From Spirogloea muscicola (lineage: Eukaryota; Streptophyta; Zygnematophyceae; Spirogloeales; Spirogloeaceae): a DNA stretch of 25,224 nucleotides. A program made the position numbers and the translations under genes. The notes below the pieces were generated by a model that made no database searches, was not told the DNA's origin, and saw only the letters and a list, made by a program, of their open reading frames with translations. Position 1 is the first letter of the stretch, and the number at the start of each line of letters is the position of its first letter. This document shows, one piece after another, positions 1-25,224 of the stretch. The DNA is taken from the NCBI GenBank assembly GCA_009602725.1, contig WELB01000019.1, positions 1-25,224 on the forward strand, written 5' to 3'.

Positions 1-493
1 CCGGGCAGCGCGCCCCCCGACGGCGCCAGCTGACGGCTGCCGCGCTGCCCAGCCGCATGCCCTGCCCGGGGCGAGCGTGCGGCTGCCCAGCACCCGCCAG
101 CTCACTGGCCAGTACTGCTGCCTGCCCCTTGCGCGCCCGCTGTAAGTCAGCACTGCTGGCAGGTCCGCCGGCTTCTGAAGCTCGCGGGGCGAGGTAATCT
201 TCCTTCCCGCTTTGTCTACTTGATACCATCATTCGCGTAGGCCACGCTTGGCTGTATGGTGCTGGCTGCTTGCCCGAGTCTGAGTAAGTCAACTGCTTGG
301 ACGTTGTGGCGAGTGTGTCCTGCAGGCCGCCGACCTTGATTTCCAGGTCGGCGGCCTGAATTTCAGGTGGCTATCATCGTCGTCGTCCGAGCGGACGGTA
401 GCTTACCTCTGCGCACTGTCGTGTCAATGATGTGATTGTGCTTCATGACATGGCTGATTGTGGTTGTGTGTATCCCGCTTGTAGAGCTCTGCA
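1..493. other. Upstream region of the alpha-galactosidase gene
   Basis: No gene could be supported here. The first 120 or so bases are very GC-rich and could be the edge of a neighbouring gene outside the window, but no recognisable protein was read in them. The rest is the presumed promoter and 5' UTR of the gene starting at 494. The main structure is the perfect inverted repeat at 323-358, listed separately. Confidence 0.5.
323..358. repeat. Perfect 14-bp inverted repeat (hairpin) upstream of the GH27 start
   Basis: The arm CAGGCCGCCGACCT at 323-336 is the exact reverse complement of 345-358, separated by an 8-base loop. The right arm runs straight into a second near-palindrome, CCTGAATTTCAGG at 356-368. 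It lies about 135 bases before the start codon, so it falls in the promoter or 5' UTR. It could be a protein-binding site, an RNA hairpin, or a fold-back replication error. The function is unknown. Confidence 0.8.
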
Positions 494-3400: not shown

Positions 3401-4556
3401 TTCTCCAGCCGTTAGAGCCCGTAGTAGACGAGTGCAGAGCATCTATCACTGGGCTGGTCATGCAGATTAGCTAAATGCTGCTTCCCAGAACCTGGCTCTC
3501 CAAGGGGCAGTGGCTCTGAAGTAGGAGGATGCAAGAGTATTTGAGTCACCTGAGTCGATGGTTGGCTGCGACATAGAACAGGCCCCTCTGATCATTGGCA
3601 ATGACGTCCGAAATATGACGGAGGAAACATTCACCATCCTTTCCAATCGCGAGGTCATTGCTGTCAATCAAGGTAATCAATCTCAGCGGTACTTTTGTTA
3701 CTCCCTTGCTCTGCCATTGAAGTCTTTCCAGTCCAGAGCACCACTTCTATGAGTGGCTTCTTGCTGTGCAAAGAGGAGCTCGAGGGTGTCTGACATGGAG
3801 TATGTTGCGCAGACCCTCTCGGAGTACAAGCGAGAAAAATGCGGCAAGTCAAGGGGCTTGAGGTTTGCTTGTCCTTCTTCTAGCTTGTGCTTCTTTTCAG
3901 CTCTTGATGACTACACCTGTGATATTGCATTGTCGCCTGCCGCCTCATACCTTGGGAAAGTTGTCAACTCAACAGCACTGCTTATGGTCACACACAAATG
4001 GTCTGTGTTGCAAACTTGTGCAGTGCACATTATTCACATCTGTTGCAATTGTGAAATCTGGGCGTTTTGGCTTAAGCTGACCCTGAAGCAGTTGCGGTGG
4101 CATTGCCTGACCATAGCAGACCTGCATGGCAGGTTTGGGCAGGACCTCTTTCTGGAAACAGAGTAGTAATTGCTCTGTGGAACAAGACTCCCATTGAGAG
4201 CCTCATCACGGCCAGGTGGAAGGACATCGGCTTGCCTTCGGTTGCTGTTGCAACCGCCCGGGATCTTTGGCAAGTATGGACTTCTGGCTAGATCTCAGCT
4301 ACTAATCTTTTGGTCAAGTAGTTGCTGTGTGACCTGTATGTAAGAGCCTACTTGTAGTGGCTGGATATTGCCAGCTTGTGCCCAGATCAAGTTGCTCAAA
4401 GCGTATGCAATAGTCAGGGATGTCTTGAGTGACACGTCAAGTTGCTTCCACATGCAGCACCAGAACTTGCAAGGAGTTTACCGGACTTCGTTGACAACGA
4501 TGGTGCCATCCCATGATGTGGCAATGTTTGTTCTGAATGTGACGATTGGAAGCTAG
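494..4556 (+). CDS. Secreted alpha-galactosidase, glycoside hydrolase family 27 (15 exons)
   Basis: This enzyme hydrolyses terminal alpha-1,6-galactose from galacto-oligosaccharides, galactomannans or glycolipids. Exons read by eye are 494-711, 930-988, 1098-1154, 1405-1439, 1602-1705, 2081-2153, 2422-2480, 2641-2706, 2812-2895, 3060-3124, 3249-3331, 3582-3672, 3813-3862, 4133-4273 and 4458-4556. All borders are GT-AG and phases join without a break, giving 427 residues, the usual size of plant GH27 enzymes. A signal peptide covers about residues 1-22 ([23 protein letters not shown] without its last residue). Family motifs in order are [10 protein letters not shown] (73-82), DDCW (112-115), [14 protein letters not shown] with the predicted nucleophile Asp190, [12 protein letters not shown] with predicted acid/base Asp245, [27 protein letters not shown], then the C-terminal beta domain beginning [12 protein letters not shown]. 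Most family members I recall have Gly where Leu244 stands. The secreted or vacuolar location is inferred from the signal peptide. Confidence 0.93.
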
Positions 4557-6484
4557 ATCTGGAAACCTTGCCATGCGGAGCGCGATTTATTTTCCAATTT
4601 TCCCCCATTGGAGAACCCTGCCCTTTTCGGAGAGCGTGTCATGGTAGCAAGTGACTGTCTTTGTCTTGCTGTCACCCTCTTATTGTTTTTAACATTCAGT
4701 CTCATACCACGTCCTGGAGGTAGTAGCAGCACGGCTCCACTGGCAACAGAAAACCAAGTCTGAGATCATTCTACATACTGTCCTTGCAGAGCAACATAGG
4801 AGCAAGACCAGGCTGTAGCTTTTTCATGTATCAATGATGTCAGAGTCCTGCTCACTCATGCTGTATGCCTGTCAATGTTGAGCGCCTCCACTTTCTGATC
4901 AGCATGTAGTGGCGCTGATCAAATGCGGATATTGGGCCTATGAGCTCCTCCAGGGTCATGGGCCCTACATCTTCGTCAGCATTCCCTCCCTTGCAAGCCT
5001 TGGCTACTTGGTGCACATTGACAAGAGGGCCCTGCATACGAGAAGAGAGTGTTATCTTCAATACCTCAAATACAGTGTGAAAAGCCATTGGCGCCTGGAC
5101 GGCTCAGCTGAAGCGAGTTGATCCAACCGCTGGCCTTCTGCTGCATCAAATTCACGCTGTGTCAAACATCTGAGTCATTGCTTGGCTTGTAAATCGTGCA
5201 GCTAGTTGATTCTTATTCTTGCAGATGGTTCTGCTGGAGCCCCTAGCTTATACCCCGCCGCCGGAGCTTGGCCCAGTCTTTGTCGACACAGGAAAACAAC
5301 GTGCAGTCTCTGTGCCACTTGCGCGCTCGGTCTCTTTTTCAATAGGCTGAGGCTGTGTTCGACCTGAGACCGCCATACTTTCAGATACTTTATCAGACAT
5401 ACAGTCATGCTTCAAGCATACAGCCATGGGTTGTAGCATACACTTCCTGGTTGACACCCTTCTTAGCTTTCACACATAGTGTAAAACGCAAAGGGTTTCA
5501 GGCAGGGCAGGATACCATCCGAAAGCGCCCTGATAACCAGCATATTGTGGTCATGGACAATTACAGTGTCCATTGACCAGTTTCCAGTGGTGAGCATCTA
5601 GCTGGGGCTCGCTATACTGGCTCCCGAATGCAAGCAAGCAGGGCAGGGCTCCCCTTTCACCTTATTGCAACCTATCGCATCAAAGTCTCAATCTCCCTTT
5701 GCGTCTCAGTCCGCCGCGGTCTTTGGTGAACGATCCTGCACCTCCAGGAGTCTGCCTGATTGATGATGTCGTACTGTTGGCAAAGAGTAGGACCATTACA
5801 TCTGAGCATCACTGCATCCTTTCTTCTGTCACTCACGGCAAGTGGACCCTAGACGTCTCTGATCTGGATAGGTCCACATTAAGGCCGGTTGACCAGTCTT
5901 TCCGCCAAGCAAGCTTTGAGATCGACGATTGGATCGCAAAGGATGACGTACTTTCATGTCGTATTTACTGCAATTCCTTGCTTCATGGCAGTCGTATCGT
6001 CCATAGGATTTCAGTAAGGTGGGCCGTAGAGTCCAATACCAGTAAGAGCATGCAGTCCTTCTTAAGCAGTCCTATGGATGATGTCCTTCATTTACACAGC
6101 ATATGTGCAACCACTTAGAGAGCGGACCAGAAGATTTTAACTTGCGTGCAAAATACAGCCGAGATCCACCATGGGCTGCATTGAAGTCGAGACAGGGTCC
6201 GAGATAGGTCCGAGGATGTGATACATTGTCAATGAGACTGATTGAACTCTGGGAATCCTTTAGGAGTGCATCACATTTTCCGATAGAGCGCTGACTCAAC
6301 GGCCTGACGCACCCATACAGGTAGGAGTGAGGGTCTAAGGGCTGATCGAGGCCTTGCCTTCTATGCTTGGCTGGACCCTTGGCAGGTGACTCAAAGAGTC
6401 GGGCACTGGCATCGAATCCGTCAAATTTGTGCCTCCATTCTCCAGCTCTGCTGAGATGACCACCTTTGCTTGTTTAGCACGCCG
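4557..6484. other. Gene-poor stretch after the GH27 gene
   Basis: No gene can be supported. The first part is presumably 3' UTR of the GH27 gene. Several short open frames occur: 4852-5088 on minus, 5225-5348 on plus just after a good acceptor-like TTCTTGCAG, and 5699-6118 on plus. None has a family motif I can name with confidence. A TGTAA motif, the green-algal polyadenylation signal, appears near 5186, but that is too far downstream to assign safely. The 5699-6118 frame is listed separately as a weak retroelement candidate. Confidence 0.4.
5699..6118 (+). pseudogene. Possible decayed reverse-transcriptase fragment (weak)
   Basis: The frame is open for 139 codons but has no ATG at its start. 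It includes the stretch VCLIDDVVLLAKSRT near its beginning, which resembles RT catalytic motif C (aromatic-x-D-D followed by hydrophobic residues, as in YADDVVLLA). The usual Tyr or Phe before the two aspartates is not present here. The rest does not look like a known thumb domain. It sits in a stretch containing other retroelement debris, which makes the reading plausible. A chance open frame is equally possible. Confidence 0.22.
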
Positions 6485-6933: not shown

Positions 6934-7952
6934 TGTGAACTTAGTACCCACGGGTGAGCACATACAAAGCCGACAAGCTAACTTGGGGAGCCGGAGCGCC
7001 GCCAAGGGAGGCCAATTCAAGCCAACACATTGTTTAGGCAAATGCTGAAGTGGGGCTACACAAAGCGAAGCAGTTGGAAGCAGTTGGAAGCGAGTGGAAA
7101 GCAAGCGCGGCCAGATTGACTGGTGGCTGGGAAAGGAGTGGAAAGCAGTTGCCGGGCGGGCGGAGCCCGGGCGCGAGAGCCAGTGGGGCGGGCGAGGCCA
7201 ACCGCGGTACGGCCTGGGCGGGCCGGAGGACGGCGGGCGGCCCGCGCAGCCCCCCCCCCCCCTTGCGGCTTTTTTGGAGAAGCCAAAACTCCCCTCCCTG
7301 GAACGGCTCCCCACCCTCCCCGCCGCCGTCCGCGGCCGCCGCCGCCGCCGCCGTCCGCTGCCCGCTGACTCGCGTGCGCCAGCGCCCCCGCCGGCCCCGA
7401 CGCCATGCTGGGGGCTGCAAGAGCCGAGGCGGCTCGCGCAGCTCTTCGCTTCGGCGCGCCGCTCGCTCTTACGGCACCCGCAGCACGACTGCTGCGTCGA
7501 GGGCCGCCACTGCGTCAGGGGCCACCCTGCCCATCCTCCCAGCGGCCCCTCCAGCTCCTCTCCCTCCCCCTGCTCCAGCGGGTGCGGAGGCCGCCGCGAG
7601 CGAGGGTCGCAGCCCTCAGATTGTGCGCACGCCTGTGGCGACCACGACATCAACGTCGACACCGGAGCCCGAGTTCCTTGGCGTCGGAGTGTCTGCGCCT
7701 GTCGAGCAAGCCCAGCTGCTTGCACATCCAAGCTCGGCCACCTCGGATGCAGACTCCGAAACTCCGAACATGGACCCGCGAGTTGGCATTGTCGTCAGCC
7801 CACCACGATCAAGTGATTCCCCCACCTGGCGGCCTTTGAGTTTGTTGGCTCTGCTCCGTCCCTCTCCCCCCCCAGCTCCACCCTTGCACTCTCCAGTTCA
7901 TCCCCCAGTGCCCGCTCCGGAGCCGCCACCGTTGCTCCCTCTACCTCCTNGA
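6934..7952. other. GC-rich low-complexity stretch with CCG triplet runs
   Basis: Long open frames exist in several phases here simply because the DNA is extremely GC-rich. A C-run at about 7249-7262 and a CCG/GCC triplet tract at about 7319-7360 stand out. The plus-strand frame that runs into the RT fragment at 7953 is open from 7050, so some of its Pro/Ala/Ser-rich translation could be the N-terminal part of the retroelement ORF. I cannot show this. A single ambiguous base occurs at 7950. Confidence 0.5.
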
Positions 7953-8243
7953 CGCTTTGGCAGAGCAGGAGAGCTCTCTCGAGCCGCTCAGGCCCTCTGC
8001 CCCGACCCCTTGGCAGCAAACAATGAGGCCACTGAAGCCACCTTGCGCCAGCTGCATCCTCCTCCTCAGCACCCTCTTGAGCCCTGGGTTGGCGAGCTCC
8101 CCACTCCTCTTGAACTTTCAGCAGATGCGCTCCGCACGGCCCTCACCAAAGCCCCCCGAATGGTGTCTGGAGGCCCTTCTGGATGGCTCTTCGAGCACCT
8201 ACGGGACATCTTCCAAAATGGAGACGAAAGAAGCTTCTCTCTG
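7953..8243 (+). pseudogene. N-terminal RT fragment of a non-LTR retrotransposon, cut off by a repeat
   Basis: The translation contains LRQLHPPPQHPLEP, then a segment of the form LELSADALRTALTKAP and finally GGPSGWLFEHLRDIF. This is the arrangement seen at the start of RT domains in a large group of algal and fungal non-LTR elements: a run of prolines, an alpha-helical lead-in, then GPSG-x-x-x-EHL. Just after this point, at about 8240, the frame leaves RT-like sequence and enters hairpin-repeat DNA. The catalytic palm and thumb are absent. The matching C-terminal part appears on the same strand at 8648, so these look like two ends of one element with the middle lost and repeat DNA in its place. 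Confidence 0.7.
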
Positions 8244-8286
8244 CTCCTCTCCCCCTTGCGGGGCGGGGCCCGAAGAAGGAGAAGAA

Positions 8287-8520
8287 AGGGCGCGCCCATT
8301 GAGGATAGGGGAGAGAAGGGCTCGCCCATTGAGGATAGGGGCTGGAAAACCAGCCCGAAAAAGAATGAACGAAGGACGAGAAGGGGGCCAGGGGAAGCGC
8401 TAAGACAATAAGCGCACACAGAAACAAAGCAGCTACGTATCACTCAGTAACCCCTGCTAAGCAGCCTCAGGTCAGAGACGCTCGGCTCCTGAAAGTGGGT
8501 CCCCTGGCCAGAGCCAGAGG
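8287..8520 (+). repeat. Hairpin-bearing dispersed repeat, copy A
   Basis: The copy holds two CGCCCATTGAGGATAGGGG blocks (8293 and 8323), the hairpin GGGCTGG-AAAA-CCAGCCC at 8339-8356, an A-rich GAATGAACGAAGGACGAGAAG segment split by small differences among copies, GGCCAGGGGAAGCGCTAAG, AGCAGCTACG, CACTCAGTAACCCCTGCTAAG and a tail GTGGGTCCCCTGGCCAG. The same order of blocks recurs at 11005-11215. The tail recurs at 11640-11670. No protein function is implied. Confidence 0.85.
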
Positions 8521-8547
8521 CCAGCAGCGAGGGCTCTGCGAAGAAGG

Positions 8548-8625
8548 AGCTCGCCCATTGAGGAGAAGGGCTGGAAAAAGCCAGCCCAAAAAGGAATGAA
8601 CAAAGGCCGAGGAAGGAGCCACTTA
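8548..8625 (+). repeat. Hairpin-bearing dispersed repeat, copy B (short)
   Basis: CTCGCCCATTGAGGAGAAGG is followed by the hairpin GGGCTGG-AAAAAG-CCAGCCC (8568-8587) and then AAAAAGGAATGAACAAAGGC. It matches the first half of copy A and lacks the second half. Confidence 0.8.
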
Positions 8626-8647
8626 CGAGGACCACTCCCAGAGTTGA

Positions 8648-9490
8648 CCACTTCTTCTCGTGCGCCATGACATTCAGGACATAAGCTCTCCGGGAGCGTC
8701 GGAGTGGCTCAACGCTCCGCCAATCTACGAATCCCTCCGGCTCTCCGACGACCTCTTCCGGACGGCCGTCCACCACCATCTCGGCCTCCCTCCACTTTGT
8801 TTGGCGGGCATTCGACAGTGTGAATGTGGCCATCGTTAGGAGGATGAGACCTCTCGGCAGCTCCACATGCTTCGATGTGTTGAGGGAAGTGAACGTAATG
8901 CCTCCCACAATCTTATCAGAGACGCTGTGTATGGCTTGGTGCGCGAGGCAGGATGTCATGCGGCCATGGAGGTGCCGGGCATCATGCCGGTATTCCAGAA
9001 GCGTGGCAGCCCTTACGTCAGGCGTGTGGGTGTGGAGGCCACTGCTCGAAATGGTGGGCCTCGTCTTCTCCTCGACGTCGTTCTCATCGACGCATTCCAA
9101 CCAGGGGCATCCACGCCAACTGTGCCAGGTTGGGCTTCACATCATGCGGAGAAGAAGAAGGACCTCACCCGGGGCGACCATTTCTTCCCATGCGCCATGG
9201 ACATATACGGCGGCTACGGATCGAAGTGGTCTTCCCTCCTCCATCGCCTGGCACAGCATGTCGATGCCCGCCGACGTAGTCGGGCGGGTAGCTTAGGGCA
9301 CTCTAGCGTCCCGCAAGCCATCGTTGCCTGCTATAGAATGCGGCTATCATTGAGTCTGCAGCGCTCCCAGGCATCGCGATACACCAGCCTGGCTGGGCGT
9401 GCATTAGGCCAGGCTAATGGCTTCCGTGGTTGTGGTCTGGCTCCTGAGCTTAGCTTGTCAGATATGTATGTGCTCACTCGAGGATATTAG
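8648..9490 (+). pseudogene. C-terminal zinc-knuckle and endonuclease-like part of a non-LTR retrotransposon ORF
   Basis: One frame opens after a TGA at 8645 and reads EWLNAPPIYESLRLSDDLFR, then CECGHR, an in-frame TAG at about 8836, and on through QLHMLRCVEG, ERNASHNLIRDAVYGLVREA, a block with LLLDVVLIDAFQP, HFFPCAMDIYGGYGSKW and LLHRLAQHVDARR. The CxC...HxxxC cysteine-histidine knuckle followed by a His-x-x-x-Arg helix, a DV strand and a FxP-x-A-x-D-x-x-GG block is the conserved C-terminus of RT proteins in this algal group. It is related to the restriction-endonuclease-like domains of R2-type elements. The in-frame stop and the missing RT core make it a pseudogene. The true protein end is probably shortly after residue block VDARR. 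The remaining open frame lies in the 3' tail. Confidence 0.8.
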
Positions 9491-9592
9491 TGCCCCCCTT
9501 AGCTAACTCATTGCCCCGTTACCAGGACATTTGTAAAGGCTAGAAGTGGCTAGAATCTTTCAATTCCATGCGCACCGCGCGCCTTCTCTCTC
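9269..9592 (+). repeat. Retroelement 3' tail, copy 2 (attached to the C-terminal domain)
   Basis: The tail runs from the end of the endonuclease-like domain through GTAGTCGGGCGGGTAGCTTA, CTGCAGCGCTCCCAGGCATC, CAGATATGTATGTGCTCACT and ends near TGCGCACCGCGCGCCTTCTC at 9569-9588. It is followed directly by the next, 5'-truncated copy at 9595. Confidence 0.8.
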
Positions 9593-9594
9593 AG

Positions 9595-9960
9595 GGCGGC
9601 TACGGTACTAAGTGGTCTTCCCTCCTCCATCGCCAGGCACAGCTTGTCGATGCCCACCGACGGGCGGGTAGCTTAGGCGTTGTAGTGTCCGTCAAGCACT
9701 AGTTGCTTGCTATAAAGTGCGGCTTCCGTTGATTCTGCAGCGCTCCCAGGCACTCACAATACACCAGCGTGCTGAGCGCGCACTAGGCCAGGCAAATGGC
9801 TTGCGTGGTGGTGCCCTGGCTCCTCAGCTTAGCTTGTCGGATATGTATGTGCTCACTCGTGGCACTGGAGACTCCCTTAGCCAGCCTAATGCCCAATTAC
9901 CAGGACTTTGCAAGGCTCGGATTGACCTCCCTTTTGTTTCAGCGCACCGCGGAACTTTCT
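9595..9960 (+). mobile_element. 5'-truncated tandem copy of the same retroelement
   Basis: This copy starts inside the endonuclease-like domain at the codons for GGYGTKWSSLLHR, matching GGYGSKWSSLLHR of the neighbour, continues through AQLVDAHRRAGS to a stop near 9702, and then repeats the whole 3' tail (GCGGGTAGCTTAGG, CTGCAGCGCTCCCAGGCACT, GGATATGTATGTGCTCACTC, CAGCGCACCGCGGAACTT). A clean 5' cut with an intact 3' end is the hallmark of target-primed reverse transcription. It sits head to tail directly behind copy 2. Confidence 0.78.
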
Positions 9961-10500
9961 TGTTGATGACGACGCGTGGGCGCCGAGGGCGGGGTATTTG
10001 GACTCTGATGAACACCCCCCGACTTTCGGGCTGGCCAGCCTTCTGCAGCCGTCGGCCCTTTCGGAAGAGCTTCTTCTCCTCGGACCTTGCCCGTCCTTCT
10101 GGCCTGACCAGCCATTGCTTTCAATTAGAAGAGCTGTTTCTTCTGGGCTGGCCCTGTCAAAGCCATCGCCTCCTACTGGAAGAGCTTCCCGTTGTGGGCT
10201 CTCCGCAGGAGGCGGTAGCTGTAAGAAGCCGGCCAGAGAGGAGGCGCGCGGTGCCCATGACTTTCCATTCCAAGGGAGGCCAAGCGGATACGGTGTTCGA
10301 TTCCTGGGCTAGACGGGGCCAAGGGAAGCGGGGCGAAAGCACAACTGGAGAGCCGGAGAGGAGCAACTAGGCGACCAAGAGGGGAGCGAGAGGTGCTAGA
10401 TCGAAGTGACGCCCACTCGAGGAGTCTAACGGCCGCCGTAATGGTCGCTAACACGACCCTGTTCAGTAATGCCTGTCGGAGGCACTGATAGAAGTTTGGA
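9961..10500. repeat. Cluster of short GGCTGGCC / GGAAGAGCTTC repeats
   Basis: Units of the form GGGCTGGCC...(CT)GCAGCC or CAAAGCC...GGAAGAGCTTC occur at about 10029-10080, 10120-10165 and 10151-10195. Related units lie at about 16210-16345 and 16958-17005 in the same orientation, and an inverted one at about 11470-11522 (CTTCCAGGAGAAGGCGG...GGCCAGCCC). No gene was recognised. Open frames across it are not family-like. Confidence 0.55.
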
Positions 10501-11004
10501 GACCGGGCTCCCTAGGACTTGGCCACACATGGCCACACATGGCCTCCCCATCTCTTAATATACACGCATTTCCTAGGAGCAGAGGGGACCACGCCAGAGG
10601 TCGCGGCTGCCGCTTCTAAGCAGCGGGCAGATGCGAGGCAAGCAGCAACTCCGGGCTGCAGCAGGACGGGGAGGCGCAGGCGGTGGAGCATGGAGCGAGG
10701 CCCGGGTGCTCGCTCGCTCGCCATGAGCTGCGCCCGTCGCCATGCCTCCGCTCGCCGCGCCGGGCCGTGGCAGCGTGTGCAACCGAGGCTGCCGACGAGC
10801 TCGAGGAGCTCGAGGGGCACTGCCGGTCACAAGCGGCGCAGGCAGGCTCCGCCGGGCTCGGCACCGTGCCGGCTGCCGGGCCCGGCCGTGCCCCGCGCCG
10901 ACGCCTTGCGCCGTCGCCCTCTCTGCACAGGAGCCGCCTAAGCTGGCCGTCCGGCAGCCGCCGCAGCCTCGTGGCGCGTGGGGGACGGGGGCAGGCAGCA
11001 CCAG
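10501..11004. other. GC-rich stretch without a recognisable gene
   Basis: A 10-base unit GGCCACACAT is repeated twice plus four bases at about 10521-10544. From about 10600 onward the DNA is GC-rich and open in several frames on both strands, a sign of composition rather than coding. No start, splice pattern or motif supports a gene. Confidence 0.45.
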
Positions 11005-11215
11005 GGCCCATTGAGGATAGGGGCTGGTAAAAAAGCCAGCCCAAGAAAGGATGAGCAAAGGACGAGAAGAAAAAAAAAGAAATAAAAAAGAAGGGGCCAG
11101 GGGCAGCACTAAGAAAACAAGCACAAGAAGAAAGAACTGTAAGCAGCTACGAAGCACTCAGTAACCCCTGCCTAAGCAGCCTCCGGTCAGAGAAACTTGG
11201 AGGCAACCAGAGGGG
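11005..11215 (+). repeat. Hairpin-bearing dispersed repeat, copy C
   Basis: It carries GCCCATTGAGGATAGGGG, the hairpin GGGCTGG-taaaaaag-CCAGCCC (11021-11042), an A-rich insertion-expanded segment, GGCCAGGGGCAGCACTAAG, AGCAGCTACGAAGCACTCAG and TAACCCCTGCCTAAGCAGCC. Block order is the same as in copy A at 8287-8520. Confidence 0.85.
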
Positions 11216-11690: not shown

Positions 11691-12314
11691 GGGGGCTGCT
11701 GCGCGCGGGCAAAGCAGGCGCCGCGGCCTGCGCTCGAACCTCCGGGCGGAAGGAAGGCCAAGGGGGCCCCCCTCCGCCGGAGCGACATCCGGTGCCTGCC
11801 ACGTGTCGAGCGCGCGAAGCCGGCATCGTGGCCGGCGCCCCGTCGGCTGCGCACGCGACGTGGCACGCCGCCTCGGGGCCCGGCGCGGGGCCGGTCAGCC
11901 CGCCACAAAAAAAAAAAAAAAAAAAAAAAAAANNNNNNNNNNNNNNNNNNNNNNNNNNNNNNNNNNNNNNNNNNNNNNNNNNNNNNNNNNNNNNNNNNNN
12001 NNNNNNNNNNNNNNNNNNNNNNNNNNNNNNNNNNNNNNNNNNNNNNNNNNNNNNNNNNNNNNNNNNNNNNNNNNNNNNNNNNNNNNNNNNNNNNNNNNNN
12101 NNNNNNNNNNNNNNNNNNNNNNNNNNNNNNNNNNNNNNNNNNNNNNNNNNNNNNNNNNNNNNNNNNNNNNNNNNNNNNNNNNNNNNNNNNNNNNNNNNNN
12201 NNNNNNNNNNNNNNNNNNNNNNNNNNNNNNNNNNNNNNNNNNNNNNNNNNNNNNNNNNNNNNNNNNNNNNNNNNNNNNNNNNNNNNNNNNNNNNNNNNNN
12301 NNNNNNNNNNNNNN
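11691..12314. other. GC-rich end, A26 run and assembly gap
   Basis: GC-rich sequence ends in a run of 26 A (11907-11932) directly followed by 382 N (11933-12314). The gap means any open frame drawn across it is meaningless. The A-run may be a real poly(A) tail of a retro-insert, or a homopolymer at which sequencing failed. Confidence 0.9.
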
Positions 12315-13172
12315 GCGGCGTGCGCCCGCGCGCCGGGGCCCGGGGGCTGGGCTGCCCGCATGCGCAGCCGCGACGCAGCCGCTGCGCCGAGGCGCGACCC
12401 CTGCGCTTCTGCATGGCTCTGGGCAGGCCGCAGCGTGGAGAGTCGTGCGTCAGAGTCCAGAGACATGAGCCCCCGGATTGGATTTGGCTGTCACCGGAAA
12501 CGCGGACTCGCGCTGCACTTGGATGTAGCCCCTCACTGCTCCATGCGGCGTGCAGGCTCCCGTCGGTGCTGGTGGCAGACATAGGAGATCCATCACAAGC
12601 GGGCGGCCCCGCGCCAGCCATTTCGCCGACTTCTATTCCATGGCAGCATCATACCCAGGTCCCGGATCGAGAACGCATAATGCAACAGTTCGCAACAGCA
12701 CATCCTTTGTCCCCACATTGCATTGCGGGGATATCACGACCGAGCTCGCAGCTGACATTGCTTCCTATCGCCAAGCCGCGAGATACGCTCGCTCGATTCG
12801 GCGAGGCCACCATGCTGAACCAACATTCGCGCATGCTGACAGGCGCAGAGAGCGCTCGGCACACCGGACAAGTGGGTCTCCTTTCTCGACGGCCAGGCCC
12901 TGCCGGCGGCACCGAGCCTTCTGAAGATTCTCACCACTGCGCTGCTCTCCTTATCTGGCAGCAATCTGCCTGCCACAAGCCTCTCGCAGGTCAGCACATG
13001 CGGCAAGCCCTTCTGCCAGGGACGCAGATGGCTCATGCCCTTGCCCGTCATGTACTGCGCCTCCTCTTTCCAATCCTCCTGAAGCATGTTGCCCTCTATA
13101 GACCTCCGGAGGTGCTCCCTGATCATAGGAGACTGACATGAATCCAGTAACAAGCGGAAGCCCGGGCTGAAG
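12315..13172. other. Upstream region of the bHLH gene; long open frame of unknown status
   Basis: A plus-strand frame stays open from the gap edge to the TGA at 13139-13141, about 275 codons. It is not in phase with the bHLH start at 13173. Its translation shows no motif I recognise, and the opposite strand is also open for much of this stretch. It could be a 5' exon of the bHLH gene, a separate transcript, or chance in GC-rich DNA. Otherwise this is 5' UTR and promoter. Confidence 0.4.
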
Positions 13173-13208
13173 ATGCAGCGACCCAAGCTGAAGATGCAGC
13201 GACCCGTT
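13167..13208 (+). repeat. 21-bp tandem duplication at the bHLH start codon
   Basis: CTGAAGATGCAGCGACCC occurs at 13167 and again at 13188, a period of 21 bases. It is in frame and duplicates the codons for KLKMQRP. Two in-frame ATGs result (13173 and 13194), so translation could begin at either. Confidence 0.9.
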
Positions 13209-15600
13209 ATTGTGCAGATGGCTGCAGAGGCGTCGTACGCACCCCTCATGCAGCAGAACCAGCTCCTGGCATTGTTGACCAGACAAGGGTCTCCCTTGGC
13301 AGCGACTGCCAACAAGGCCAGCCTGCCGCTGATGCACCGGATGCTGAACCTTCTTGACTCGTCCGGCCCCATGGCATGTGCAACCAACGGGATGAGCCTT
13401 CCCCTGTTGGCGGCCTCGCTGCAGGGCTCTGCACACTCTCCTGACTTCCCTGCTCTCGAGCCTCGCCAACCTGGGACAGCCTCAGCACCTGCCGACAGCT
13501 TCTGCCCGCTGGCGCCCAAAACACCTCACAGCAGCACCTGCAATGTGCCACTGCCATCACCCAGCACGGCGCTAGGGAGGGCCGCTTCTACCAGACCGCG
13601 CAGCAAGCGAAAGGCCCCTGCTCTGACCATCATCCCGCCAGAGAAGCTTGGGACCTGGGATGGCGATGAGGCCATGGACTGCATTGTGGATGCTGGCAGC
13701 AGATCGGCGCTGGTGTCACAGAGGGTCTGTGTAGGCAAGGGGGGCAAGGTCACTCCGCAACTATGCCTCAGCGAGGCTGCCAATCTGGCAAGGCGTTTAG
13801 CGAAGAAACCTCCAAGTCAGATCACTGACGAGGAGCTGTGGGAGCTCTATGTGCACGGTTTATTGGCCTCCCCGTTCAGATCCAAGGACCAACAGAGACT
13901 GGCGGGAGCGATCAGTGAGGCAGCAAGGCTTGCTGAGAAGAAGGTCGAAGATGCGGTGGCTGTGGCAGCGGCAGCGGCACCAGCGGCTGCAGTGAATATT
14001 GCGCTGTCCGCACAGGGGTTGAGCGTCACAGGTGACCATTCACTTCCGTGGAGCAGGACTGCGAATACTGATGATAGCACCATGGACGGCAATGCCAATG
14101 TTGATGCTGGTGAGATGAGCCTCTTTCATGACGACAAGGTCCAGCAGCTGCTTACCTTTTCGGACATCTGGCTGGCATCACCTCGGAACAGCTTCAGAAA
14201 CATCCTTGCGTCGCCAAGCACTGGGCCAGTCCTGCTCTCGCCAAGGTGCAAGGACTTCTCAGAACTCTTCCCAGCAGGGCTTGTGTCGCCTGGTTACCAG
14301 CCAGCGTACACAGACAGCTGCATTGCCGCGGATGCTGAATGCGTGTCACCAACCCCTGAGATCATCACAAGGGCCGCGTTATCAGCAGACATGACTCAAG
14401 CCGGCGGTGCTGCTGGCTTGGTCCAGACCGGGTCCAGCACCCGCAAGAGCGCTGGCAACTCCACGGTGGCCAGCTGTGTGACCACGTCTCAGGGCTCCCT
14501 CGCCATAGGAAGCATGGGCAGCGACAAGAGCTGCCTCGGCGGGCTGCTTCCGCAGTCCCTACTCCCTTGCAATGGCGAGATCAAGCCAAGCTCGTCCGTG
14601 GTGCCGTGGGTGAAGCATGCATCTTGCACCAGCAGCGAAGATGGCGGCAATCAAAGCAGCGATGCTGAGTGCATCGAGTCTCCACGCAAGCTCCTTTGCA
14701 ATGTCTTGGAGGATACGGAGGTGGCCACCAGCTGCTGCCCTGCCGAGCGCGCCTCCAAGGTCCCCAGGACATCTGAGCCTCCACGACGATTCCCCCTCTT
14801 AAGGTTGTGTTTGGACGCAGGCGATGAATTCGAGACTGCAATCTGTAGATCGGATGAGGCCGAGCCAAGAACGGAGTATGTACCAAGCAGCCGCCAGCTT
14901 GTGTGCCAAGTGGAGATGAGCAGCACAGCTGGCGGCCTGGTGGCAGCACGCTTGGAGACGCCTACAGTTCCAAAAGTAGCAGCAAGATCACGATTCGGAA
15001 CGAGCTCGCCCATGTCAATGAAGAGGCCGCACTTCAGATTTCCAACCACCTCCACATGCAACACCGCTTTAAAAAGGTTTGCCTCCGATGGAACTGCAAT
15101 GGCTGGAGAGAATGCCAAGGCCGACATGAGGAGTGAGTGGAGTCGCATGCAACTGGCGGATCCCCAGACTGGGGCACCGCGATCGCGGAGGGAGAGGTTG
15201 ACAGACCGATACAGAGCTCTGCAGGTAAGGACGCAGCCTCCTGCTCAGGACTGCTTCTGAGTATCCGCTTTACTCAATCTTTGTTTCATGACTGGCTACC
15301 AAGTCCTCTCTTTGTTGCTCCTTTGTGCACAAGTTTTCAATGCATTGTTTCTGTTCATGAGTCAGATACAAGAGAAGACTGCAGTACTCATGCGAATCAC
15401 TGCTGCAGACACTTCTCCCCTCAAAGGAGAAGACGGACATCGCCACCATGCTGCAGGATGCTGCCGACTATGTCAACTTCCTCCAGCAGCGCGTTGAGGT
15501 GCGCAGGGCTCACATGGCGTTTCTAGGCAGAGCTGCTCGATGTGTGCACCCCATATTTGTGATGTATAAAAATGATGCCAAGCCCACCGAAGCCCTTTGA
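13173..15600 (+). CDS. bHLH transcription factor, RSL-like, with long N-terminal region
   Basis: Exon 1 (13173-15224) encodes 684 residues. The intron 15225-15408 (GTAAGG...TGCAG) splits the bHLH. Exon 2 starts at 15409. The joined domain reads DPQTGAPRSRRERLTDRYR, then ALQTLLPSKEKTDIATMLQD and AADYVNFLQQRVE: basic region and helix 1 (about 663-684), loop and helix 2 (685-714). The DPQ-x-x-A-x-R-x-RRER start and the LxPxxxKxDxxxML loop/helix 2 resemble the streptophyte RSL (group VIIIc) class. As in that class, the E-box-reading His and Glu of ordinary bHLHs are missing. Exon 2 may run to the TGA at 15598-15600 (747 residues), or splice at the GTGCGC at 15499. Earlier features are a basic run PRSKRKAP near residue 142, a helix with ITDEELWELYVHGLLASPFR near 217-236, an Ala run near 263-275, and many Ser-Pro sites. 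An in-frame stop at 13134 supports the start. Nuclear and dimeric action is inferred. Confidence 0.85.
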
Positions 15601-17226: not shown

Positions 17227-17526
17227 GAAGCGTCAGCCACCGTGAGGTGACGGAGGGGGGGGCGGGCCCGCGCACGCCCATCGGACGGCTCAGGGGGCCA
17301 GCGGGGGGGTGGGACTCATCGGACGGTCCTGGGCACGCCAGCGGCCTGCCCACCTTCCCGTGCCGCCGNCGCGGCGGCGGCGGCGGCGGCGGCAGCGGCG
17401 AAGCCAGGCGCTGGACGGGGCTCCAGCCGCAGGCCGAGTTCAGCGCGAGGATCGCCGGCGGAGATATCCAGCTGGTCTTGCCCGGGGGGGCAGGCAGTCC
17501 CGTCTTGGACGCGGGACCTTGCACAT
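17227..17526. other. GC-rich 5' region of the EXECUTER gene with CGG triplet tract
   Basis: This is the presumed promoter and 5' UTR. A CCG tract turning into a CGG tract at about 17362-17400 could fold back on itself. One base there (17369) is N, probably because of this. A G-run lies at about 17484-17490. Confidence 0.6.
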
Positions 17527-20500
17527 ATGGCGTCGACGGCGGCCGCAGTGGCGGTCCCGGGCTTGCCGGCGCCAGAGCTCCAGCTCCCGGGGGTTCCGGC
17601 GTGCGTCAGCGGCGGCCGCGTCCACTCGTCCATGTCCGCGGGCTCGTCGCGCGCAGCGTGCGCCGACAACCCGCGCCGCTCGACGGGCCGCCGCGCCGCG
17701 ACTGGCGGCAGCATCTGCCACCTGAGCTGCCAGCTTGAGAGCTCCCGGCGAGGCGGGAGAAGCAACAGGCGAGCAGTCTGCTCGGCCGTCGTGGCTGCCG
17801 ACCGGCTTGCCGGCCAGCCTGCGCTCGCCGCGCAGCGGATGGCGCCGCAGGGGCTGGATGGCCGTCGCAGCGTCGACGGCATGGGGAGGAAGCCGCGGCC
17901 AGACAGCGCCGCGCGGCGGGGCAGGAAGATGTGTGCTGCCGGCTCCTCCGAGCCGCGCTCCGACAGGACAGAGGAGGCGAGCCTCGAGGAGGGCGATCAG
18001 CGGCCCTCCAAGCTTGCAGGGCCTGCCGGCGACCAAGTGGAGGGTCCCTGCCAGCCCTGGGGTAACGCCGCCCGGCGCAAGAGGCTCCAGGAAGTGGCGA
18101 CGCGCGTCGGTGATCCATTCCGGGACATGATCACGTCCGCATCCAAGCGGTTGCAGAACTATCTGGACAACCACAGCCCCCAGACCTCTGCTGACGAGAG
18201 CGAGGAGAACGACGGGCCGGCGGACGACTGGACCAAGTGGCAGACGGTGATTGCGGAAGTAGAGGAGCGAGACACTATCGTGACTGCTCTGAAGGTCAGT
18301 GGCCCTGGCAGGCTGTCAGCTTACTACAATGTACATATCAGATGTTTGCACAGGTCAAGCGCAGACCATCGGCTTGGATGTGCCCTTATAGGCATGTTAT
18401 GACATTGCCTTGCTCTGGGCACTCCTTACAGGAGCAATAACTTGTATGTAATGAGGACTTACCGTCACGAGGACTTACTGTATATATGATCTATTGTCGT
18501 GCAGTTCCAGCTAGAGGATGCTGTGGACAAAGAAGACTATCAAGAAGCTGCAAAACTAAAGGACGTCATTGGCGGAATAATGGCAAAAGACACAGTCACT
18601 GAGGTGTTGGATGCCTTACAGGTGACTTGGCTCTTATCCCTTCAGTACAACAAGCAATACACGTTCAACTGCATGAGTTAGCAGATCGTGCTGTGGTCTG
18701 CCTCTTCTTCAAGGCTGGTGGAGTGAGACGCTGTGACACAAGCCTTTGTATGATCTGTGACAATGTAACCCTCTCTATTGTGCTGTATCCAATAGTTGGT
18801 CCTATGGACACAGTGTCATATCAATGCACATCCCTTTTAGACTCACACTTTCATGCCTGCCTATGGGTGCTTATGGATATGGCGGCAGCTTGCTTTGGCT
18901 GAGGAGCGCTATGCGGATGCTGCAATGTATCGGGATGAGGCGGGTGTTGGACTGGTACGTGAGCTCCACGTGATGCTGGATGCAAAGCAACTCAGTGGAG
19001 GCAGGGGCACAGGTCTCCTTAGCACGCCGCACTGAATTGAATGCTCTAAGTTTTATCGTTGATAAACCCTTGCTTGGACGCTTTGCGCAGATTGGTTGGT
19101 GGGTAGGGTTGGCAGAGGGCGCGAATGACCCCTTTGGACGCATCCTTCAGATTTATCCATCAGATGGGAGGTTGTTGGGCAGGAGCTACACAGCAAAGTA
19201 AGTTGTCAACACCTGAGCAGCCTCATGACTGAAGCATGTCTGTGCATGTGCTTGATTCAGCGGTGGCCTGCGCAGGTGGTTCTGTGTACTGAGGCTTTGG
19301 GTGATTCGAGTGGTAATGCAGGCAACTGGCAGTTGCTGGGCATGGTTCGGCCATCTTTGAGATTTTTGTGGCAAGAGACAGTCGTGGGCGATATAGGAAG
19401 CAGGTATTGGGATCACAATGAACCATGCCTCGGTCAAAAGATTGCAAGTCAATTTGCAGTGGTACCCAAGTCACTGAACAAGTGCTCGTCGTTACATGAC
19501 GATTACTGCTACCCACCCAGTTGTGCATATATCCAGAGCTATACTGACTGCCTATCATTGGGACATGCAGGCGGTGTACTTGAGAAGAGATCCACCTTCT
19601 GCAACGCAAGGTCTTGTTACGACAGGGACTGAAGAGGTTGTGGACGCTGACAAGCAGAGTGACAATGTGAAGGTAGAGGAGGTAGACGTAGAAAAGACTG
19701 GGAGCAGCGCAGATGAGGACAAGCCCAAGGCGGATATCAAGGGGACTGAGGAAGGACTTGGGGGCATCCTCAACTTCTTGAAGGATCGCATGCCCGGTGT
19801 AAAGCTTAAGGTCTTCAAGGTGTCGGCTCCTGAGGACGTTGATGTAGACCTTCCCAAGATAGTGGAACAGATCATGGAGGATAGGGCAGAGAAGGCCACT
19901 GGTCAAGTGAAGGCAGATAGGGACCAGACTGCTGACGGTAGTGGTAGTGAGGCCTCAGGAGGACAAAAGGAGGGCGACGATATTAAGACTGCGTCAGGGA
20001 AAGGAGAGGATGGCACTGCAGACGAGGTAGAGGAGGGGATGCCTGTGAGAGTAGTTCTGGGTGGAGTTCTGTCGGGTGCCAGCAACCTGTCAGACGACAG
20101 GCCCAAGCTTCCAGTACGGGTGCCTGCAAGGATGGAGATGAGGGGCAGGGACGTCTTCTTGTTTAGTATGGAGGACGGGCTTGCGGAGGCAAGCCCGCCG
20201 CACGATGCCAAGTTCTCTCGTCAGATGCAGATTGCTACTCAAGCAATGTCGGAGATGATGCCTGACGACGTTGCAAAGGTCTTCTGGAATGTGGATGTTG
20301 ACAAGCTAAGCAGCCAGGTATGTGTAGGTCTTGCGGTTGACAAGGGAGACCGATATGCTCGATTTTGCAAATCTCTATCTATGTAATGATGGGTGGGTCA
20401 CTGTTCTCTGATAAGGAGCAGTGTCGCTCGGTGGTATGTTTCTTCATATGCAATTGCTATTACTTCAGTAAAAATCCTAGATGGTATAGATTGCTACACG

Positions 20501-22021
20501 GATTGTGAGAGACGATGCCACATCTCCCCCAGACTTTATATCTTTGCCATGGCTTTCTATTGCACATGCACCTACGCATGTCGTGTTCGCTTGAAGCCCT
20601 TGCAATAGAAGTGGGTGTGTTGGCTGAACAGAATGGTGGCAAGATGAACGAGTTGGTTAAGGGGCAGATGGGCGAAGTTGTCAAGGCGGCTGTCAGCCAG
20701 GTCCAGAAGAGGAAGGAGCTCTCTCCGCGCACGTTATTCAAGAGGATCAATGTCGCTGATGCGAACGCAGACTCCCTCAGTGGTAAGAGCTTATATTACT
20801 CCTGCATATCTTGGGCATAAGGAGTGGTGCAGGCAGGTTGATGCCAGTCAAAGGGCTCTGTAACGAGTGAGGGCTCCCATACAGGTCTGTACATTGGAGC
20901 ATTTGGACCGTACACGTCCGAGGTGGTGCAGCTGCAGCGTAAGTATGGTCGTTGGGAGGGCGACGGTTCTGCAGACGACATTGGTTTACCATATGAATAT
21001 GTCGAAGCTGTGAAATTGACGGGCGACCTTAACGTACCAGCTGGCCAGGTCAGCCATTACTGTATTGGTGTACTATTGCTTGTGGTGGTTGTCCTCAACG
21101 CTCACTCTTAATAATAGTGTGGGGGTAAACTGTGAACGAATTGCTAACGTCCTGAGCGCTTACATGCATCCGCTTTGCTCTTGCAGGTGACCTTTCGAGC
21201 TAAGATTGGACGTGAAGACCGCTTGTCACATCGAGGAATCTATCCAGAGGAGATTGGTGTGGTATGTCCTCTTGCAAGGATTGGTGAATCTGAGTATAGC
21301 ACAGCGCACCCAGCAGTATATCTGGTCAAGTTGGTGCTAAAGGCTGGTCATAGTTGAGGCGTTTGCCTCTTCAGTCTCTTCTTTCAGGTTGCAGTTCGAC
21401 CTTTGATGACCGATGGGCATCTTTTGTTGTGCTTGCAGACAGCACGCTACAAAGGCCAGGGTAGACTAGCAGAACCTGGTTTCCGCAATCCGAGGTGGAT
21501 AGAGGGGGAGCTTGTGTTACTGGATGGCAAGGTGTGTCTTCTGTGGTGTTTGTTGCTATGCTTATATGATGTACCTGTAATTTGGATGGAATCTGGAAGG
21601 CTTGAGTTCAGGTGACTCTGATCGTAGAGTCCTCCTGCATCTTGTCCAGCTACATGGAGAACTCGAATCATGGTCTGACAATTATCATAGTTTCTACAAC
21701 CTGCTGCCTTTCTTTAAAAGAGGTTAATGGCTTGTCATGTGCAATGTCATCTCTCAGAACCAGGGATTATTAGCTGATACCTATGTGGCAAACAAGCTCT
21801 GAAGCAGAGGAGCTCTGCAGCAGTATATTGCCTTCAAGAGAATGATCTTCTTATCGTTGATTGTTGCACAGTCACTGGCGATGACAATGAAAGGAGCTGG
21901 CAGTGCGAGCAGCGCAGAGCTGGGCTTTGTGTACACTGTCCCCGAGAAGCACTTCCTTGTTCTGTTTAATCGGCTCAAGCTCCAGGACTATGTGCACAGA
22001 CTGGGCACTCAGCTCAGCTAG
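17527..22021 (+). CDS. EX1: EXECUTER family chloroplast singlet-oxygen sensor (11 exons)
   Basis: In plants EXECUTER proteins sit at thylakoid grana margins, where oxidation of a Trp in the C-terminal sensor domain triggers FtsH proteolysis and retrograde signalling. Exons read are 17527-18294, 18505-18621, 18889-18954, 19091-19197, 19322-19403, 19571-20317, about 20533-20782, 20885-21048, 21187-21261, 21439-21531 and 21872-22021, giving about 872 residues. The exon 7 acceptor is uncertain; all other phases join cleanly. Motifs in order: a Ser/Ala/Arg-rich N-terminus suited to a transit peptide; [19 protein letters not shown] (to 256); the UVR-like [20 protein letters not shown] and [17 protein letters not shown] (257-317); [18 protein letters not shown] (318 on); [68 protein letters not shown]; then [24 protein letters not shown] and [13 protein letters not shown]. 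Trp812 lies in the position expected for the plant sensor Trp643 (my inference). Exon 6 is acidic and longer than in plants. EX2 is the alternative name; algal copies may predate the EX1/EX2 split. Confidence 0.93.
18257..18294 (+). other. Start of the conserved EXECUTER core at the exon 1 end
   Basis: The codons for [13 protein letters not shown] close exon 1 at 18294, phase 0, right before GTCAGT. They join FQLEDAVD in exon 2 to give the helical lead into the UVR-like repeat. This marks where conservation begins. The 230 or so residues before it are low complexity. Confidence 0.7.
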
Positions 22022-22553: not shown

Positions 22554-25224
22554 TCAGCTTCCCTTGTCCAACTGACGCTGAAGCTCTAAATTCTCAGCCC
22601 GGACAGCCTCAAGGTCCCTACGTAGACGTGTAGCATCAGTGGGCCGCTTGGTGAGGTTGTCAAGCTCATCCTGCAGCTCGGCTACCTGGCGCTCGGCGCG
22701 GTCGGCGTCGGCGGCGCGGGCGCTCAGCGCCTCAAAGCTCTGATGCATGTGAGCCAGCAGCCGGTATGCATCCCGGCAGATGATGTCCTTCTAAGCATTC
22801 CTGGCATAAGACCCCAGTCATAGGTGATCAGGATTCCGACTATGTGATCAGGTTCACGGGCTAGGGCCAGGCTTCGACGCTGAGCTTAAGGAGCACAATT
22901 AAGCTTTAAGCTTTAATTGATACAAGGCGAGCACCAGTTGCTTTCATCCTGTAGCAATAAGCTGTACGTAAGTGGAGAGAGCATGTCAAAGCTCTTCAAT
23001 TGCTCATCATCAAGGCGGAGCATGCAGGACTATGGAGTCGGGCAATGGTAGGAGGTTTGCACAGGCACCTGAAAACAAGCTCGTCAACAAGGGCGTCCTC
23101 GCGGGCGAGGCGGTCAGCGGCAGCGTTGGCTTCACGCTGAACGCTGCGCACGCTGTCCAGGATGGACGCGTTCACTGCCTCTTGCTTGCGGAGGTGCCGC
23201 ACGAGCTCCATAATACGGCCCACGTACGCGCCGCGGCCCGCAACTGGTGCTCCTGGCACCGCCTCCAGCTCCGCCACCAACGCCTCTTCCTCCTCCTTGC
23301 TGCACAGCCACAAGCAAAATGGCCTGTAGGACTAACACAAACTTAAGATAGTATTAAGTCCATGGCTGGCAACAACTTCTACTTCCTCGACTGCACCCTG
23401 ACATACTCTCGTGCAGTGGGGCGAACACGGTCTCCAACCAGGCCTCAGGGCTTCAGCAACGAAGCCTCAGCCCTGACTTCAGAAGCGACTTGCATTCTAG
23501 CAGCTGGCCAAGAAGAGACTTTGCGACCAGTATTGCTACTGCGCGCTGCTCGCCCTGCGGCGGCAGTGGTGCAGCAAGGGGTTGAGGCTCCGCACGTGGC
23601 CCGGAGGAGTGCAGCAGTCTCGTGCAGCCGGTCAGTAGCGCGAGCGCTTTGGCTGGCCGCCGCTGCTTCCTCTTGTCGCAGCCCGTCCAGCTCAGCCATC
23701 AGCGGCGCCCTCAACGCCTCCCTGGTTGGCGGCAAGAGAGCCGGCAAGAGCACAGCGAGCACACATTGCAGGCTCAAGACCTTCGACCAGAATACTGGAG
23801 CTGAGCTTTCTGATGGTCCTTGATGTGCAGAGATGCAGCAACCTGTATACATTCGGGCAAATAAGGGGACCTGGTTTGTAGTCATCATATTAGACAACAA
23901 TTTACCCCTAATGTAGCAACTGGAGTTCAAGTGGGCGCACCACTCCGCTTGCAATTGGGCACGCCGCGCTTCGCCATCACGCAACCGCTGTCGAAGGCCA
24001 GCGGCTGCTTCAGCAGCAGCCTCTCCACGCCTCACGGTGCCCAGCACCAGCTCGGCGGCGCGCTCCATGAGGAACAGTGCCGCCTCGCGGCCCCGTGCGG
24101 CTGCCTCTTTTGCTGCAGCCTCATGCTCATTTGCCTCTGCAAGCCTGTCTGTCTGCGCAACAAGGTGCACGATGGAAATGGACTCAGCAACTTCGCAGTA
24201 ACTTTGCAGCTGGGGCTCAACTAGCTCTCTGTGGTTCTCGTAGAATCAAGAGCTTGATACCATACGCCCTCAGCCTACACCCAGTTACTATCCCCAAGAG
24301 CTGAGACACTCGGCAGCAGAGGAGGACTACTGGCTGTGGTTGTGCAGGTCCAAGATCAAAGAGATTAGTAGTCTACACCACATTGATGCTTCTCTAAGCC
24401 ATCAAGCGCTGCTCACCCGGGCATCGGCGGCAGCCGCATCGCCCACCGGCCGACCCGCCACAGTGCCTGTCGCAACCGAAGCCCCATCCAAGCCGTCTCG
24501 GTAGCTGTCATCCGGCGCCAGCAGGCACGGCGGCCAGCAGCCGCCTCTTCCAAGCACTGCCGTCTGAGTCCCCGTGCGTGCAACAGCGCCGTGTTGGGGG
24601 GTCCATGATGCCGTCCTCACAGCGGCGGCGCCGGCGGAGGGGCTGTCAGCGTCTCGGAGGACTGTGGCAGCCTCTCTGACAGGGCTCGCTGGAAGCGGAG
24701 GCTCTCCACCGCTGCCAGAGGAGGTGCTCTCCTGCAGGCACTGGGCCAGCGCCGTCGACACAGCCGCCGAGAGCCGCGTCGGCAGTGGCGCCGTCCCTGG
24801 CGCCGCAGCGGCCGCACCCTGCCGACGCAGGGGCCGGCGGAGGCGCGGCTTGGCAGCGGCGGCGGCGCTGTGGGCGTGCGAGAGCTGGGTGGCGAGGAAC
24901 TGGAGGAGCGCGCGGGTGTCGCCCTCGCTGGGGTACAGGAACTGGCAGCACCGCGCCGGCCATCAGGCGGCTGCGCTTGCCCGCGAGGCTCAGGGTTCAG
25001 GGGTTCAGGGTTTGTGGGTGTCAGGGCGGGAGGGAGAGGGCCTTGTGGACGCCAAGCTCAGGGGAGCGGGCTCTGCGGGGGGGCCCTGCCTGGTGGAAGC
25101 CGAGCTCGTGGCGGTAGCCCAGCTGCTTGACGGCGGCCGCCAGGTTGGCGCACAGCCGGAAGCGCGCCGACGCCTCGCGCGGGAAGCCGCCCGGCAGGCC
25201 CGCCCCGGCGGCGGCGGCTCCGGC
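22554..25224 (-). CDS. CCDC22: CCDC22 homologue, Commander/CCC complex subunit (partial at window edge)
   Basis: CCDC22 pairs with CCDC93 and COMMD proteins in the Commander complex, which recycles membrane cargo from endosomes. Minus-strand exons read (5' to 3') are 25224-25090 (continuing outside), 24941-24621, 24563-24417, 24209-23941, 23721-23596, 23299-23069 and 22790-22554, about 489 residues. The N-terminal calponin-homology-like domain shows SARFRLCANLAAAVKQLGYR then HELGFHQ joined to FLYPSEGDTRALLQFLA. A Pro/Ala-rich linker follows, then coiled coil (HLVAQTDRLAEANEHEAAAK, LQAEW joined to EALRAPLMAELDGLR, KEEEEALVAELEAVPG). The C-terminus has YVGRIMELVRHLRKQEAVNA, ALVDELVF and KDIICRDAYRLLAHMHQSFE, matching the metazoan block with TDELVF, KxYxxLAxLH. 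Phases join except between 23069 and 22790, where a tiny exon encoding about three or four residues is probably missing from my model. The first intron seems to use a GC donor (CAG/GCAGGG at 25089-25084). The first exon is off the window. Confidence 0.85.
24944..25089 (-). other. Probable GC-AG intron in the CCDC22 gene
   Basis: The codons for HELGFHQ end at 25090 and those for FLYPSEGD start at 24941. Together they match the family continuity across this point. The base pair after the CAG exon end is GC, giving CAG/GCAGGG, and the acceptor is CTGCCAG. There is no GT that would keep both motifs, so a GC-AG intron is the simplest reading. GC donors are a known minor class in eukaryotes, including algae. 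Confidence 0.65.

Follow-up and report, generated by a model that had tools for sequence, protein, structure and literature searches.

EXECUTER1 (EX1) of Arabidopsis combines a UVR motif with a DUF3506 domain and contains 11 tryptophans, at positions 67, 88, 111, 113, 116, 198, 199, 264, 565, 643 and 667, of which Trp565 and Trp643 lie within DUF3506 (PMC6597547; this and the other papers cited here are represented by excerpts). Trp643 was identified as the oxidised residue, in the peptide 643-WVDGELVILDGK-654, with a tabulated mass of 1374.71 for the oxidised form (Dogra et al. 2019, PMC6597547). Both F528C and G646D block oxidation of Trp643, and the exchange of Gly646 for Asp abolishes signalling as well; no oxidation occurs at Trp565, and EX1 carrying W565L complements fully (PMC6597547). 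The EX family, as distinct from its sensing function, has been placed in the ancestor of Chloroplastida (PLoS Biology atlas, PMC11135702). Here we describe an EXECUTER-family gene on the forward strand (17527-22021) of a 25,224-nucleotide stretch of DNA, contig WELB01000019.1, referred to below as the window, and compare the protein that it is predicted to encode with these systems.

The candidate sensor tryptophan of the predicted EXECUTER protein

The gene was modelled as 11 exons that together keep one frame open for 839 codons, followed by a stop. The product matches two Pfam families. One is UVR (PF02151), at residues 252-278, encoded by the end of exon 1 and by exon 2 (E = 6.8e-6; score 26.1 bits, cut-off 21.5). 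The other is PF12014 (Cyclin_D1_bind), at residues 667-828, where the match takes in positions 3-155 of the 156 in the profile (E = 2.9e-28; score 99.7 bits, cut-off 22). We take PF12014 to be the former DUF3506, or "SOS" domain. No other Pfam family was found in the 839 residues at E up to 1, and an F-box domain was likewise not found in that search. Only one UVR stretch was scored, the UVR-like repeat of exon 3 receiving no separate Pfam score. Because the two matches are far beyond chance and occur in the order found in EX1, the locus is, as far as its letters can tell, a bona fide and apparently complete EXECUTER-family gene, a further member of a family already known. The identity proposed in an earlier note on this DNA is therefore borne out by two domains above their cut-offs and by the match to the sensor peptide described below. 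The first 110 residues contain, by plain composition count, 4 acidic and 13 basic residues and 39 Ser, Thr or Ala, and the protein is probably imported into the chloroplast.

The predicted protein contains 8 tryptophans, at 178, 235, 238, 320, 321, 619, 703 and 779. The last of these, W779, lies inside the PF12014 match and opens a 12-residue peptide that is identical to WVDGELVILDGK at 9 of 12 positions; it is preceded by Arg, so that trypsin would release a peptide spanning the same 12 positions as in EX1. For the EX1 peptide we computed a mass of 1374.70 in the N-formylkynurenine form, in agreement with the published 1374.71. G782, three residues after W779, matches EX1 Gly646. The other tryptophan of the domain, W703, stands in GRWEGDG, compared with the published GQWKGGK of EX1, and matches Trp565; the spacing from this first SOS tryptophan to the sensor tryptophan is 76 residues here and 78 in EX1. 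Further upstream, W320/W321 match the EX1 pair Trp198/199, and F665 in TLFKRI, 15 residues before GLYIG, is the likely equivalent of EX1 Phe528, given the Arabidopsis letters that we assume at this place. Of these correspondences, the peptide match identifies W779 of the predicted protein as the equivalent of the EX1 sensor Trp643. The earlier note had reported an intact EPGFRNPRW motif with its tryptophan at the place of Trp643, and comparison with the published oxidised peptide confirms this assignment. Its route there, a count from the C-terminus, would not by itself lead to the same place, as W779 lies 60 residues from the end compared with 41 for Trp643 in an EX1 presumed to be 684 residues long. 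With the plant end likewise assumed, the protein here would be about 10 residues longer than EX1 at its C-terminus.

EX1 Trp667, which we take to be the W of GFVYW in keeping with its published position, is replaced by Thr812. Exon 11 encodes GFVYT after a 17-residue Ser/Ala-rich stretch, and Thr812 follows W779 by 33 residues, compared with 24 residues from Trp643 to Trp667, the 9 extra residues falling at the start of exon 11. Human FBXO31 reads GFVWL in the same part. The PF12014 match runs past Thr812, to residue 828, which counts against a plain reading of this position as outside the domain. Oxidation at Trp667 is not mentioned in the excerpt of PMC6597547 and, since that paper names Trp643 as the oxidised EX1 residue, Thr812 in this place is probably without consequence for sensing. 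The altered second aromatic pointed out earlier is real, together with the Ser/Ala-rich segment before it, and leaves the sensor as reported unaltered; we rejected the Trp667/Thr812 exchange as a change of sensor on the ground that the reported oxidised site is Trp643.

A long acidic insert in exon 6, which had been described as unlike plant copies, did not survive a comparison of length with EX1. The linker between the WW pair and the first SOS tryptophan is 382 residues long, compared with 366 in EX1 as calculated from published Trp positions, so that in length, as distinct from composition, there is no added block, and the insert was discarded as a novelty. The most acidic 100 residues within exon 6 have a net acidic excess of 11, and the protein as a whole is most acidic over a 100-residue stretch (net 18) that starts at residue 214, before exon 6. 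The extra length of the protein lies N-terminally, with the WW pair beginning at residue 320 compared with 198 in EX1.

Beyond the two domains, the stretch IGWWVGL...GRSYTAKQL...IFEIFVARD (19091-19600), which follows the UVR motif, appears to be a further EXECUTER region. The part of the protein from UVR to linker matched no NCBIfam family and only UVR in Pfam; against the PDB it gave 11 weak matches, the best at E = 0.05 and some of them to ATP synthase alpha, none of which was convincing. Relatives of the SOS domain were also sought outside eukaryotes. A peptide pattern was fitted by 2 stretches in viral contigs and by 32 in prokaryote genome contigs, none of them confirmed, and a degenerate DNA pattern for a 15-residue peptide had no match in either the viral or the prokaryote contigs.

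Sensing, folding and recognition of damage

With moderate confidence, we read the gene as an EXECUTER orthologue that senses in the Arabidopsis manner through W779. By analogy with Arabidopsis, singlet oxygen from the photosynthetic membranes would oxidise W779, plastid proteases (FtsH, with ClpC contacts) would recognise and break down the oxidised protein, and its proteolysis would set off a signal from chloroplast to nucleus. Contact with ClpC is illustrated by a ClpC1 trap, in which EX1 was enriched 178.5-fold and EX2 215.7-fold (PMC8889267).

Several points weigh against this reading. Alignment could draw on FBXO31 and on the peptides and residue positions published for EX1, and both gene and protein are known here from DNA letters alone. 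Towards the C-terminus the protein departs from EX1 in the 9 additional residues that follow the sensor and in Thr812. For Chlamydomonas, absence of the tryptophans targeted for oxidation has been reported (PMC8491031, excerpt); its best match is 10.2% and 11.2% similar to EX1 and EX2, and a green alga can therefore do without this sensor. Finally, EX1 proteins substituted at W643 are unstable (W643A and W643L), and conservation of the tryptophan may therefore reflect folding rather than sensing.

The last two points lead to the alternative that the protein is an EXECUTER orthologue and no singlet-oxygen sensor, with W779 kept for the SOS fold, some other task in plastid proteostasis, and sensing added later in the plant line. 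The instability of the W643 substitutions and the existence in Chlamydomonas of a DUF3506 protein that lacks the tryptophans are what such a history would leave behind, and the association of EX1 and EX2 with ClpC1 (PMC8889267) fits a role in proteostasis. In Klebsormidium, where an EX gene has been named, its expression did not respond to high light (PMC9121098), though control of Arabidopsis EX1 is through protein turnover. Against these observations, tryptophan is a fast target of singlet oxygen and W779 sits in a sequence context close to that of EX1; moreover, the FBXO31 residue aligned with it is Arg, so that Trp is not required by the fold as such. We regard a purely structural W779 as rather unlikely.

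FBXO31 was reached through the common Pfam family and not through sequence search. A phmmer search of the PDB with the SOS part gave 10 sequences, the best at E = 0.18, and FBXO31 was not among them at E up to 10. The FBXO31 segment in PDB entry 5vzt nevertheless matches PF12014 at profile positions 9-154 with E = 6e-52, and in local alignments the SOS half with the pocket scored 66 against FBXO31 (reached by 0 of 2000 shuffles) and the half with the tryptophan 43 (reached by 2 of 2000). The FBXO31 domain binds C-terminal amides formed by oxidative cleavage; binding is lost in Y309A, I337D and T343V, and D334N no longer binds amides (PMC11821526). In the local alignment these pocket residues, Tyr309, Asp334, Ile337 and Thr343, correspond to F686, D727, V730 and T736 of the predicted protein, two identical and two conservative, while W779 aligns to Arg483 and G782 to Gly486. 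Identity extends to 19 of 41 aligned columns, at which level both identical pocket residues would be met with a chance of about 0.21. As two such identities would turn up in roughly one case in five, the pocket match supports homology and leaves function aside.

A second alternative builds on this relationship and holds that the SOS domain primarily reads oxidatively cleaved plastid proteins: its pocket would bind C-terminal amides, the UVR end would hand the fragments to ClpC, and oxidation of the tryptophan would switch the reader off or trigger its self-destruction. The nearly end-to-end PF12014 matches of both proteins, the identity at Asp334 and Thr343 with mild exchanges at the other two pocket positions, the alignment scores and the trapping of EX1 and EX2 by ClpC1 (PMC8889267) all agree with it. 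They are offset by the chance estimate, under which nothing beyond homology is seen, and by the failure of the PDB search to return FBXO31. Arabidopsis EX1, moreover, presumably has Ala rather than Thr at the place of Thr343. On balance we consider amide reading as the primary function to be quite unlikely.

The same link invites a broader proposal, which we put forward speculatively and with low confidence: EXECUTER may be the plastid counterpart of FBXO31, an amide-binding reader of damage that is wired by UVR to Clp/FtsH rather than by an F-box to SCF, in which tryptophan sensing would be coupled to the recognition of oxidatively cleaved photosystem proteins. The copy described here would then keep both the tryptophan and an FBXO31-like pocket. 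In a different family, UVR1, one branch gained UVR and another an F-box-like domain (PMC8889267). No paper joining FBXO31 with EXECUTER, or DUF3506 with an F-box, was found in PubMed Central among articles under CC0, CC BY or CC BY-SA licences. The shared family suggests a specific function for the SOS domain that can be put to the test.

Two further alternatives carry less weight. W703 is conserved, and EX2 is reported to be oxidised at a tryptophan of another number, Trp530 (a review and a citing paper, in excerpt), which would allow W703 to be the oxidised site here; as its EX1 equivalent, Trp565, is not oxidised and can be replaced by Leu with full complementation (PMC6597547), we hold this to be very improbable. 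A broken or wrongly assembled gene is hardly credible and a pseudogene was rejected, since 839 codons are open over 11 exons with both domains above curated cut-offs and no N falls within 17527-22021, even though the window has N at 11933-12314 (382), 7950 and 17369 and the junction of exons 6 and 7 is ambiguous.

Gene model and the rest of the window

The exons of the model are listed in the table. Translation is taken to start at the first ATG that follows, in frame, a stop at 17248-17250. All 10 introns are GT-AG; as the GT-AG rule was used to pick the splice sites, this proves no more than that a model of this kind can be built. The least certain splice is that between exons 6 and 7, where 21 donor/acceptor pairs leave the frame open. 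We selected the donor at 20317 (CAG/GTATGT) and the acceptor at 20632 (AACAG/AATG) because this pair adds the least intron-like peptide.

Exons of the modelled EXECUTER gene, with positions in the window
Feature	Position	Strand	Content
Exon 1	17527..18294	+	Start codon, putative chloroplast transit peptide, N-terminal region
Exon 2	18505..18621	+	Most of the UVR motif (PF02151, E = 6.8e-6)
Exon 3	18889..18954	+	17 residues that by eye resemble a second UVR repeat
Exon 4	19091..19197	+	IGWW pair W320/W321, equated with EX1 Trp198/199 by order and adjacency
Exon 5	19322..19403	+	GT-AG borders, frame kept
Exon 6	19571..20317	+	249-residue linker, 51 acidic and 32 basic residues
Exon 7	20632..20782	+	Start of the SOS domain; F665 in TLFKRI; acceptor picked among several
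Exon 8	20885..21048	+	SOS domain; W703, F686, D727, V730
Exon 9	21187..21261	+	SOS domain; T736
Exon 10	21439..21531	+	EPGFRNPRW; W779 (EX1 Trp643), G782 (EX1 Gly646)
Exon 11	21872..22021	+	Ser/Ala-rich stretch, GFVYT (T812), C-terminus, stop TAG

Downstream of the stop codon, AATAAA is absent from the following 579 bases. One TGTAA, a motif that serves chlorophytes as a polyadenylation signal, occurs at 22221, 200 bases 3' of the stop, a frequency near chance for a single 5-mer in this interval. Convergent with the EXECUTER gene is a CCDC22-family gene (Commander complex) on the reverse strand at 22554-23331, perhaps extending to about 24960. PF05667 matches it above the cut-off on 22996-23331 (E = 3.6e-13) and below it on 22554-22790 (E = 9.9e-4), and CCDC22_N matches below the cut-off on 24402-24962 (E = 0.042). 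Such a neighbour presumably argues against a seed plant as the host. An algal origin of the EXECUTER gene, as the earlier note had it, is plausible.

At the other end of the window, an intron-rich alpha-galactosidase gene runs from about 490 to 4560 on the forward strand, its ends judged by eye; two hand-spliced pieces, one with a guessed junction, match PF16499 (Melibiase_2) at E = 2e-14 and 7e-26. The interval 7000-11150 is GC-rich, has open frames in both orientations and recurring peptide fragments, SLSDMYVLTRG among them, and looks by eye like retroelement remnants; three of its open frames gave nothing above a Pfam cut-off. A run of 26 A (11907-11932) leads into the 382 N already mentioned, which mark an assembly gap; the N at 7950 and 17369 are single. 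A stop-free frame of 707 residues occupies 13137-15260 (+) and has no Pfam match at E up to 0.1. Neither tRNA genes nor Rfam families at gathering scores were found in the window.

Comparison with known systems

The predicted protein is closest in plan to Arabidopsis EXECUTER1 (AT4G33630, PMC6597547), with which it shares the domain order, UVR towards the N-terminus and DUF3506/SOS at the C-terminal end, the matched Trp643, Gly646, Trp565 and Trp198/199, a tryptic peptide at the same 12 positions and a linker of similar length (382 and 366 residues). It differs in having 122 additional residues ahead of the WW pair and 9 more between the sensor tryptophan and the place of Trp667, where it has Thr812. 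EXECUTER2 (AT1G27510) likewise has the DUF domain and UVR, and is set apart by its reported oxidation at Trp530 and its role as a negative modulator (the same review and citing paper). Human FBXO31 (PDB 5vzt), the substrate receptor of SCF-FBXO31, shares PF12014 and the motif TGD-x-N-[IV]-PAGQ-x-T with the pocket residues Asp334 and Thr343. It has an F-box in place of UVR, belongs to a ubiquitin ligase, carries Arg483 at the position of the sensor tryptophan and has a longer domain, 217 residues over profile positions 9-154 compared with 162 over 3-155 here. Chlamydomonas Cre03.g163500, the single DUF3506 protein of that alga (PMC8491031), shares the domain and departs from the protein described here in the reported absence of the tryptophans and in its low similarity to EX1 and EX2. 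By this comparison, the apparently algal copy of the window keeps the sensor site intact. The earlier note proposed that sensing may be ancestral to green plants, which would presuppose both a chlorophyte host and oxidation at the site. If its host is a chlorophyte, the sensor site known from Arabidopsis would have existed before chlorophytes and the land-plant line diverged, and the absence reported for Chlamydomonas would represent a loss and not the ancestral state.

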